Below, in pieces: positions 5,624 to 30,638 of a stretch of DNA of 59,408 bases (position 1 is its first letter; each line of letters opens with the position of its first letter). Position numbers and translations under genes: made by a program. The notes beneath the pieces were generated by a model, which searched no databases, was not told where the DNA came from, and saw nothing but the letters and a program-made list of their open reading frames with translations. The stretch is from Lachnotalea glycerini (GTDB lineage: Bacteria; Bacillota; Clostridia; Lachnospirales; Lachnospiraceae): assembly GCF_003201285.1 (NCBI RefSeq), contig NZ_QICS01000018.1:1-59408 (forward strand), given 5' to 3'.

Positions 5624-8935
<3,312 letters not shown>

Positions 8936-27216: not shown

Positions 27217-27234
27217 AATATTTCCTCCTCATAA

Positions 27235-27281
27235 AAAGAGGATAATTATTTAGACTAGAAAGTCCTAATAATTATCCTCTT
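27235..27281 (-). terminator. Intrinsic terminator in the glnK-amt junction
   Basis: On the minus strand AGAGGATAATTATT pairs perfectly with AATAATTATCCTCT (14 bp) and the inner loop extends with a GACT/AGTC stem. A run of five T follows at once, then the amt ribosome site. There is no room for a promoter between terminator and amt. Confidence 0.88.
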
Positions 27282-27335
27282 CGATAATATTTCATATTTT
27301 ATATTTTTTTAAAAAATAATTTAAAGTGCTTCATA

Positions 27336-27674: not shown

Positions 27675-27913
27675 ATTAATACCTCCTTATATTTTTCTAA
27701 CAAGCTACTTGAATAAAATAACTTTGTTATGTTTTCTTAACCAAAAAACAAAGTACCTATGACACATTAACTCTATCCCTTATTCAAGAAAGATACCTGT
27801 ACTTTACGCACCAGTTGAAGTCACGCAGTGATCTTTCTTTTCCGCGATATGCGCATTTTGGCACGTTATGCCTTTTATTTAATATAGATGTTAGTAGAAC
27901 TTTCCTATTAAAT
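27675..27913 (-). promoter_or_regulatory. Structured 5' leader of glnK-amt (candidate cis-regulatory RNA)
   Basis: About 240 nt without a credible ORF on the sense strand and locally richer in GC than its surroundings. Read as minus-strand RNA it contains GGCA/UGCC (about 27848-27873 region), a perfect 9-bp AAGAAAGAU/AUCUUUCUU stem (27831-27839 with 27786-27794) closing a 36-nt loop, and ACUUUGUU/AACAAAGU (27747-27754 with 27721-27728). GUACUUU (27750-27756) can instead pair with AAAGUAC (27799-27805), so two folds exclude each other. No known riboswitch class is recognised. Confidence 0.5.
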
Positions 27914-27951
27914 AAAAAAACGCTTCCTAATGCAATGTACATTAAGAAACG
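27914..27951 (-). terminator. Early terminator in the glnK leader
   Basis: On the minus strand CGTTTCTTAATG pairs with CATTAGGAAGCG along 12 bp (two G-U pairs) with a 7-nt loop, followed by seven T. The hairpin starts about 15 nt after the predicted transcription start. Confidence 0.85.
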
Positions 27952-27972
27952 CCCTTGTTCTTTGATAGTTAA

Positions 27973-28000
27973 ATTATACACGATTTAAATTATTTGTCAA
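27973..28000 (-). promoter_or_regulatory. Consensus promoter of glnK-amt
   Basis: Minus-strand perfect TTGACA (27995-28000), 16-bp spacer, perfect TATAAT (27973-27978). Confidence 0.8.
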
Positions 28001-29534: not shown

Positions 29535-29600
29535 TTATTTATTTCATAGGAATCAATATTTTTATACGTTAACAACAAGGTCTTTCCTATGAAAATACAA

Positions 29601-29655
29601 TAATTAAAAGGAATTATCCATAAATATACTGGAAAATTCCTTTTAATTATTGTAC
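29601..29655. terminator. Bidirectional terminator, dac/exonuclease
   Basis: AATAATTAAAAGGAATT pairs with AATTCCTTTTAATTATT. The right arm contains the stop codon of the minus-strand exonuclease gene, so the terminator is shared by the convergent genes. Confidence 0.8.
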
Positions 29656-30605
29656 TTCTTTGACTTTCTTTTTATTTTTCTTTTTTTCCTTAATTCATCT
29701 CTCCTTGCTTGAATCTGAAATCCTTCTTCTTCACTAATTCCCTTTATTGTTTTAATTACAAAATATTTGTCCGATTCACTTTTCTTCATTCTTATCTTAC
29801 ACTTAATAAATCCATGTTCATTACAATAACATAATGCATAATATACCTTAGCATTAATCGAGAACCATTTAATCCTTCTCTTTACATTTTTATTACAGTA
29901 ATTGCATTTTGTGCTAATCACTTCCTTATCAAGCATAGCCTCTTCCTTTGAATTAAACTGTCTTGATATATACTTACTATATTCATTATATTTTAAATAG
30001 ATTTCATCTTTCTTTTCCTTTGGTGGATTAAAATAATCGACTGAAATATTATTCAATAAATAATTTTCATCTAATAATTTTAAGATTAGTCCTGTATATT
30101 CGGCGTCATAAATTGCCTTATGAAATTCGTGATCTATGCTAATATTAAGAAATGAAACTGCATATTCAAGAGTTCTTCTTACTTTAATTGCCTCAAAAAA
30201 CATACTAAATATTTTTTGAACATCGTAATATTTTAAAGGATAATCAAACTGATATTCAATACCAAAGTATTTCATATTCCTCTGCAATTCCATCAAATCC
30301 ATATTTCCCCAAGTAGCAAAAATATAATCTTTTCCACACCAATCTAGAAAATGAGAGCAAACCTGTGAAAAGGTACAGCATTTGTTTAATTCTTCCATAC
30401 TAATTTTAATAACTTCCCTTGTCTTATAATGAATTGCATTATAAACACAAGGTTTAATCAATTCACTGAATTCTCCAATTTTATTATAATTAGAATCCAA
30501 CTTAACAGCGCCAATTTCTATAATTTCAAAAGGGAGCTCTTTATTTTCTTTTACTTTTCCGTCTGGACATTGATTCCATTCCAAATCCAGTACTATATAA
30601 TTCAT
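29643..30605 (-). CDS. DEDDh 3'-5' exonuclease with Cys-rich zinc-ribbon-like C-terminus
   Basis: 320 aa from the ATG that follows AGGTGG by 7 nt; an in-frame ATG ten codons upstream overlaps the ribosome site. The exonuclease fold has Asp7 and Glu9 (VLDLEWN), Asp103, and His162-x4-Asp167, so it is DEDDh like KapD and ERI-1. A second part contains CNYC (234-237), CYC (259-261) and C269, a probable zinc ribbon. The end is strongly basic (about 305-317). This suggests RNA trimming, but the substrate is inferred. Confidence 0.85.
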   Translation of the reverse strand: MNYIVLDLEWNQCPDGKVKENKELPFEIIEIGAVKLDSNYNKIGEFSELIKPCVYNAIHYKTREVIKISMEELNKCCTFSQVCSHFLDWCGKDYIFATWGNMDLMELQRNMKYFGIEYQFDYPLKYYDVQKIFSMFFEAIKVRRTLEYAVSFLNISIDHEFHKAIYDAEYTGLILKLLDENYLLNNISVDYFNPPKEKKDEIYLKYNEYSKYISRQFNSKEEAMLDKEVISTKCNYCNKNVKRRIKWFSINAKVYYALCYCNEHGFIKCKIRMKKSESDKYFVIKTIKGISEEEGFQIQARRDELRKKRKIKRKSKKYNN

Positions 30606-30638
30606 AAATTCACCACCTATATAATGGTAAAACAAAAA

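Follow-up and report, generated by a model that had tools for sequence, protein, structure and literature searches.

A candidate single-hexaloop attenuator and a terminator-associated structured repeat in the glnK-amt leader of Lachnotalea glycerini

Introduction

The closest described counterparts of the locus analysed here are the ANTAR antitermination systems EutV-eut, NasR-nasF and AmiR-ami. According to the accessible part of PMC3369931, the ANTAR substrate is defined as a dual hairpin, induction is lost upon deletion of the first hairpin, and P-II and ammonium transporter genes are already found among the substrate matches. Antitermination by EutV of E. faecalis requires two hexaloops, as stated in the accessible parts of PMC3369931 and PMC8934654. 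The latter, a structural study from 2022, redefined the minimal ANTAR binding motif as one hexaloop and predicted single-hexaloop sites, with two hexaloops still required for antitermination and single sites expected where polymerase timing is unimportant; it also raised the question of why antitermination should need two hexaloops if a dimer binds one (PMC8934654, accessible part). The glnK loci described below agree with this minimal motif in their single hexaloop but, unlike the expectation voiced in that part of PMC8934654, their single hexaloops overlap terminators, both in leaders and in operon gaps. Like the established ANTAR systems, they combine a six-base loop carrying A or G at position 1 and G at position 4 with a short stem, a C-G closing pair, bases common to the 5' arm of a terminator and a location at nitrogen genes. 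Unlike EutV-eut, NasR-nasF and AmiR-ami, the glnK leaders show one hexaloop, located a few nucleotides after the expected RNA start.

The second component of the leader is a dispersed structured repeat, for which several described elements offer comparisons. Group IIC introns insert behind terminator hairpins, and the repeat shares this placement, although its copies measure about 180 nt and six canonical repeat loci gave no intron match in Rfam. Like REP/BIME elements, bcr1 of B. cereus and the clostridial Clop/Clot repeats, it is short, palindromic, present in many copies and organised in genome-specific families; going by the descriptions in the accessible parts of PMC2267715 and PMC3733652, it differs from them in its multi-helix body of ~180 nt, a helix bulged on the 5' side, a terminator-like end of its own and a position directly behind terminator T-runs. 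'Mobile attenuators' (PMC2965389, accessible part) likewise link a mobile sequence to attenuators upstream of genes; there the element brings the terminator, whereas here the attenuator is conserved and the element appears to have arrived behind it.

Organization of the glnK-amt locus

The window, i.e. the entire 59,408-nt stretch of L. glycerini DNA analysed, carries the glnK-amt locus on its minus strand (Table 1). The glnK promoter is the sole perfect TTGACA-16-TATAAT in a 4-kb scan, and the stretch between the start-proximal terminator and glnK forms a leader of about 240 nt. An earlier note on this DNA had described the perfect promoter, a hairpin with a T-run soon after the expected start and a perfect 9-bp stem around a 36-nt loop, all of which are present. 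Its further statement that the leader holds no sense ORF has to be corrected, as a 65-codon GTG-start frame on the same strand (27784-27981) overlaps it, though the start of this frame lies upstream of the expected RNA start.

Table 1. Features of the glnK-amt locus and of the glnA-ANTAR operon. Positions refer to the window unless a locus is given.
Feature	Position	Strand	Remark
Promoter TTGACA-16-TATAAT	27973-28000	-	12/12 match
Hexaloop hairpin GAAC-AAGGGC-GTTT (P2-like, ANTAR-target type, loop A1 and G4)	27947-27960	-	overlaps 5' arm of terminator
Start-proximal intrinsic terminator, hairpin (27956-27916) and T7	27914-27956	-	counterparts in relatives
Degenerate copy of terminator-associated structured repeat ('switch-like RNA')	27742-27916 (ends approximate)	-	
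Repeat helix H1, AT-rich palindrome	27873-27916	-	
Repeat helix H2 (GGCATAACGTGCC), then conserved ATGCGCA	27860-27872	-	
Perfect 9-bp stem 27839-27831 / 27794-27786, 36-nt loop	27786-27839	-	outside canonical repeat fold
AAAGTAC ... GTACTTTGTT	27747-27805	-	place and pattern of terminal stem H5 of the repeat, by eye
glnK, P-II protein, 112 aa	27336-27674	-	PF00543, 6.3e-27
Second hexaloop hairpin ATTATC-GAAGAG-GATAAT, glnK-amt gap, loop G1 and G4	27271-27288	-	
Terminator between glnK and amt	27233-27280	-	overlaps second hexaloop
amt, ammonium transporter, 405 aa	25999-27216	-	PF00909, 9.2e-124
glnA-ANTAR operon of the same genome	L117 (G000:C13:38000-46000), about 5925-6100	-	hexaloop leader, repeat directly behind terminator

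A hexaloop over a start-proximal terminator is conserved at glnK

A hairpin with a six-base loop lying over the 5' arm of a terminator was found in 31 of 46 glnK leaders and in 26 of 46 glnK-amt gaps, compared with 1 of 196 control terminators (loci L160-L199) passing the same rule (purine at loop position 1, G at position 4, a C-G closing pair and four or more stem pairs). The 46 loci comprise all 45 matches of one search (E <= 1e-34; three genomes give two) and one other, and the 15 leaders failing the scan include one with only 78 nt upstream (L099). When the loop letters were left free, six bases remained the commonest loop size in leaders (33/46; 23, 7, 11 and 17 for sizes 4, 5, 7 and 8) and in gaps (31/46; 9, 12, 11 and 28), and eight size-8 gap loops that were inspected turned out to be the same six-base-loop hairpins with one pair opened. 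Without any preselection of letters, loop position 1 was A in 18, G in 13 and T in 2 leaders and position 4 was G in 29 of 33, while in gaps the counts were A 25, G 4 and T 2, with G at position 4 in 31 of 31. The window follows this pattern with AAGGGC in its leader, which meets both A1 and G4, and with a gap loop that has G at position 1. In 13 of the 31 attenuator-bearing leaders, the first loop base is G instead of A, a departure from the established ANTAR targets.

The hairpin is closely coupled to the promoter. A -10 box matching at least 5/6 lies 4-20 nt before the hexaloop stem in 28 of the 31 attenuator-bearing leaders, 25 of which also have a -35 box, spaced by 16 and likewise matching at 5/6 or better. 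In these 28 leaders the hairpin would thus start within the first nucleotides of the RNA; the other three lack such a -10 box. One pair of the hexaloop stem occurs as A-U in 17, G-C in 9 and G-U in 3 sequences, all of them preselected for a 4-bp stem; the 31 aligned leaders (29 distinct) had entered the set by having four or more stem pairs, which fixed their pairing percentage beforehand. The covariation score of the stem over the 29 distinct leaders is 0.300. Sliding the alignment by one column lowers this score to 0.194, yet leaves the number of two-sided changes at 12 cells and raises the pair types from 7 to 9. Promoter and terminator are also present in the glnK leader of a genome of the same genus (G002). 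Together, these observations support the start-proximal terminator as a conserved, nitrogen-linked attenuator between promoter and glnK. A distance of 349 nt separates the attenuator terminator from the start codon in one glnK leader (L104, genome G334).

As the hexaloop starts near the RNA start, a first hexaloop (P1) of the leader would fall in the promoter. A P1 is seen in 3 of 31 leaders, in each case on the upstream side of the -10 box. Among 24 gaps, 7 carry a further hexaloop upstream when three pairs suffice for the stem (shuffles: 6.3). Requiring four pairs or more leaves 6 of 24 (shuffles: 2.5, maximum 7), and requiring A1 and G4 as well leaves 4 of 24 (50 shuffles: mean 1.5, maximum 4). 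A consistent first hairpin is absent from leaders and gaps, and a minority may have a P1. The earlier note had found the hexaloop pairs bound by ANTAR proteins not evident; one hexaloop is in fact present, and the point stands insofar as a consistent pair was not seen.

A glnA-linked ANTAR protein is the likeliest candidate regulator

A covariance model trained on glnK leaders alone (R2) returned, besides the window's own glnK leader, which is a training sequence, the glnA leader of the same genome as its second match (E 9.5e-4; 150 of 1597 candidates scored) and a near-perfect palindromic terminator (C1:920316) as its third. It also finds the glnA leader of G002 (E 6e-7), and both glnA leaders lie outside the training set. 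Behind glnA, both genomes encode a 182-aa ANTAR protein, a gene order kept in a further genome (G056) with a weak leader match (R2 E 0.93). Proteins of this kind go by the name NitR. In an alignment of the glnA-linked protein to solved ANTAR proteins, Asp54 of EutV is replaced by Gly in its receiver-like part, which sets it apart from EutV. At the position of EutV Tyr164, as numbered by our own count along the chain, it carries His, and so does AmiR. Tyr164 of EutV stacks on loop G4, as given in the accessible part of PMC8934654. Based on gene order and leader similarity, the glnA-linked protein is the likeliest candidate regulator of the glnK leader, and we infer ANTAR control of both the glnK and the glnA leaders. 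The genome of L. glycerini has two ANTAR genes, one being that behind glnA. The second encodes a receiver-ANTAR protein beside a sensor kinase, in a layout resembling EutV/EutW (L116, G000:C2, 3393-5472).

The region behind the terminator is a dispersed structured repeat

BLAST of the leader against its own genome returned further places, the strongest of which match only the middle of the leader. This middle part is absent from the glnK leader of G002. A covariance model of its first two helices and the motif ATGCGCA (R1), built from 11 training copies including those of the window and of loci L094 and L105, scores the window copy, itself in the training set, at 82.1 bits. R1 matches occur in 21 of 61 genomes, 20 of 37 within the family and 1 of 24 outside, and number at least 51 in the genome of L. 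glycerini, at least 77 in G001, which belongs to the same genus, and at least 60 in G005 (84 candidates scored per genome, strict filters), counts that include matches on both strands of one palindrome. The full-length majority sequence was located at at least 46 places in the genome of L. glycerini, many of them 180-187 nt long (40 of 177 candidates scored).

The canonical fold begins with an AT-rich palindrome (H1) and a small hairpin (H2). A helix (H3/H4) follows, from whose 5' strand about ten bases bulge out, and a hairpin resembling a terminator closes the element. When 14 subfamily copies were folded for H3/H4, some, L163, L181 and L182 among them, took other minimum-energy folds. The helices are kept with different letters across the subfamilies of different genera: in 14 hand-trimmed copies the H3/H4 covariation is 0.341 compared with 0.154 for shuffled alignments, a value reached by 0 of 500 shuffles, with slid controls at or below 0.123. 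Further pair types do not exceed shuffles, 171 of 500 of which reach the count in one repeat alignment and 312 of 500 in the H3/H4 alignment. The copy in the window has kept H1 and H2, whereas its H3/H4 is decayed. At another locus of the same genome (L173, G000:C6 near 143255), the second half of the repeat is swapped for a long hairpin (GATAAGGGGATATATC...GATATATCCCCTTATC).

Identity with a known RNA family was dismissed because, in an Rfam scan of six canonical repeat loci, two tRNAs passed the cut-off and all other matches fell short of it. Copies on plasmids or phages were likewise dismissed: a search of 72,556 plasmid and 50,697 phage records for the subtype found in L. glycerini came back empty. 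A pattern search of genome contigs returned 8 stretches, all from Konateibacter massiliensis; an earlier, over-specified pattern had given zero matches in genome contigs.

A hairpin stands right before the T-run preceding H1 in 29-32 of 40 copies, compared with 1.7-5.3 of 40 for shuffled upstream sequence; R1 begins with three T, so the T-run is partly built into this count, the hairpin is not. Before other T-runs a hairpin was found in 3-14% of 66. The 40 copies came from the top of the match list, not at random (20 from the genome of L. glycerini, 8 from G001, 6 from G010, 3 from G005 and one each from G012, G027 and G030). The repeat also occurs head to tail in two or three units (L220, L221 and L222), each of which, with repeat ends judged by eye, starts at the terminator-like end of the previous unit; these arrays fit placement at terminators because the repeat's own end is terminator-like.

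A two-layer explanation of the glnK leader

We consider it probable that two layers explain the glnK leader, namely a promoter-coupled attenuator of the ANTAR type and a passenger repeat behind its terminator. RNA synthesis would start at about 27966, and the first 20 nt of the RNA would form a four-pair hairpin with the loop AAGGGC, whose bases are common to a terminator ending about 50 nt in. By default, the terminator would form and transcription would stop; when nitrogen is scarce, an ANTAR protein on the hexaloop would hold the terminator open, allowing RNA polymerase to reach glnK, and the second hexaloop-terminator would gate amt in turn. The likeliest actor would be the 182-aa glnA-linked protein. 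Its own operon is led by the same type of leader, which would let the regulator boost its own synthesis. The stretch of 175 nt that follows the terminator is a decayed copy of a dispersed repeat whose usual site is immediately downstream of terminator hairpins. Within an attenuator, such a site belongs to the 5' UTR, which is how the repeat would have become part of the glnK leader. It would be unnecessary for the switch and would probably only lengthen the leader or mildly affect read-through or stability.

On balance, we lean towards a broader picture in which single-hexaloop ANTAR antiterminators of Lachnospiraceae, located in the first 20 nt of RNA behind TTGACA/TTTACA-16-TATAAT, gate glnA-ANTAR, glnK and, inside the operon, amt, and in which a ~180-nt repeat of some genomes targets terminators, its own terminator-like end among them, and thereby enters attenuators, where it changes from a 3' flank into a 5' leader. 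If true, this single-hexaloop class would break the two-hexaloop rule of ANTAR antitermination. The two-hexaloop question becomes directly testable with this natural set of leaders and gaps in which just one hexaloop overlaps a terminator. The repeat, by its position behind terminators, is unusually placed, and at attenuators this puts it within a leader under regulation. The results of interest here are the single-hexaloop attenuator and the terminator-associated repeat; neither was found in the literature searched, which comprised few subscription papers, without supplements.

Alternative readings

The repeat might instead have been co-opted, acting, once the terminator has been passed, as an additional brake on the glnK-amt mRNA, as its stabiliser or as a site of its processing. 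Related repeats, identified by eye, lie behind the terminator of the glnK leader in two other genera (G270, L094; G253, L105) and behind the glnA attenuator of L. glycerini itself, where G002 has an H1-like remnant alone, and canonical copies end in a terminator-like hairpin, a property suited to this reading. It is nonetheless rather unlikely given that H3/H4 of the window copy is decayed and that repeats also lie behind ordinary terminators, so attenuators may simply be targets. A related repeat was seen by eye in 3 of 31 attenuator-bearing glnK leaders, the window included, a share that may be no higher than the background rate, and the other 28 are without one.

The start-proximal attenuator might also be read by means other than ANTAR, such as another RNA-binding protein, slippage during initial transcription or a terminator of fixed strength. 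The single hexaloop and the frequent G at loop position 1 would accord with this, ANTAR binding of the leader being a prediction. Among 98 genomes, ANTAR genes occur in 12 of 12 with the leader and in 62 of 86 without it (Fisher 0.035), the 86 including genomes that lack this glnK; inside the family the figures are 11 of 11 and 44 of 49 (Fisher 0.57). The phyletic link was given no weight because it vanishes inside the family, where ANTAR genes were found in 55 of 60 genomes searched, which makes co-occurrence with the leader uninformative there. Against a non-ANTAR reading, which we regard as doubtful, stand the recurrence of the loop of six, G4, the purine at position 1 and the overlap with the terminator 5' arm at glnK, amt and glnA, and the fact that the glnA operon itself encodes an ANTAR protein.

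Returning to the passenger repeat of the two-layer explanation, its dispersal, its arrays and the one leader without it together suggest that it is mobile. An IS200-type (Y1) transposase, also targeting terminator T-runs, might move it in trans. A Y1 match is present in 10 of 10 family genomes with at least 8 R1 matches and in 11 of 17 with none, an association short of significance (Fisher 0.057), and five low-copy repeat genomes (G003, G004, G013, G024 and G033) are without a Y1 match. Five of eight Y1 elements inspected by eye, four in G001 and one in L. glycerini, lie just behind terminators, whereas L213 (masked upstream), L218 and L219 do not show this, and the ends of the Y1 elements look unlike those of the repeat. 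The evidence for Y1 as mobiliser is suggestive only, and we hold the idea to be improbable. By eye, each of the five (L212 and L214-L217) starts immediately after a terminator T-run with TTG at its end, and L214 and L216 have a copy of the repeat as their right flank.

The earlier note had read the leader as a nitrogen-linked riboregulator, of which the conserved, nitrogen-linked start-proximal terminator is supported and the unnamed riboswitch downstream of it is not. It had noted that GUACUUU can pair either with AAAGUAC or with a downstream segment, and both mutually exclusive pairings are indeed in the sequence (AAAGTAC 27805-27799, GTACTTT 27756-27750 and AACAAAGT 27728-27721); with relatives compared by eye, they were found in the window copy alone. 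None of 200 shuffles folds as well as the 277-nt leader (z -5.5); z is -2.2 without the terminator and -2.4 when the first palindrome of the repeat is removed as well. A perfect 9-bp stem with a loop of at most 60 nt arises in 20 of 500 shuffles of the 181-nt remainder, placing the stem only weakly beyond chance. The leader has no Rfam hit at the gathering cut-off, its best being rli56, which scores 21.8 bits where 47 are required, and can thus be assigned to no known riboswitch family. Conservation in relatives, on which the note had made its reading depend, is contradicted by the G002 glnK leader, and the few glnK leaders with a related repeat do not amount to a conserved aptamer upstream of orthologous genes. 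A new nitrogen-metabolite riboswitch after the terminator (27870-27700), switching between AAAGUAC/GUACUUU and GUACUUUGUU/AACAAAGU, was rejected as extremely improbable despite its real pairings and somewhat better than shuffled folding, since the region is missing from G002, is a repeat present at many other loci genome-wide, matches nothing in Rfam at the gathering cut-off and contains a stem of a kind also seen in shuffles, and since one side of the putative switch resembles the ordinary terminal stem of the repeat. AAAGUAC/GUACUUU is probably this terminal stem, whose counterparts in other copies, by eye, read AAAGCGG...CCGCTTTGTT and AAAGTGT...ACACTTTGTT.

Elsewhere in the window, an H1-like palindrome of another repeat subtype (TTTCATAGGAAAGACC...GATTCCTATGAAA) lies on the minus strand at 29542-29594, behind the terminator of the minus-strand gene 29643-30635, with an R1 score of 18.7 bits (E 0.086).
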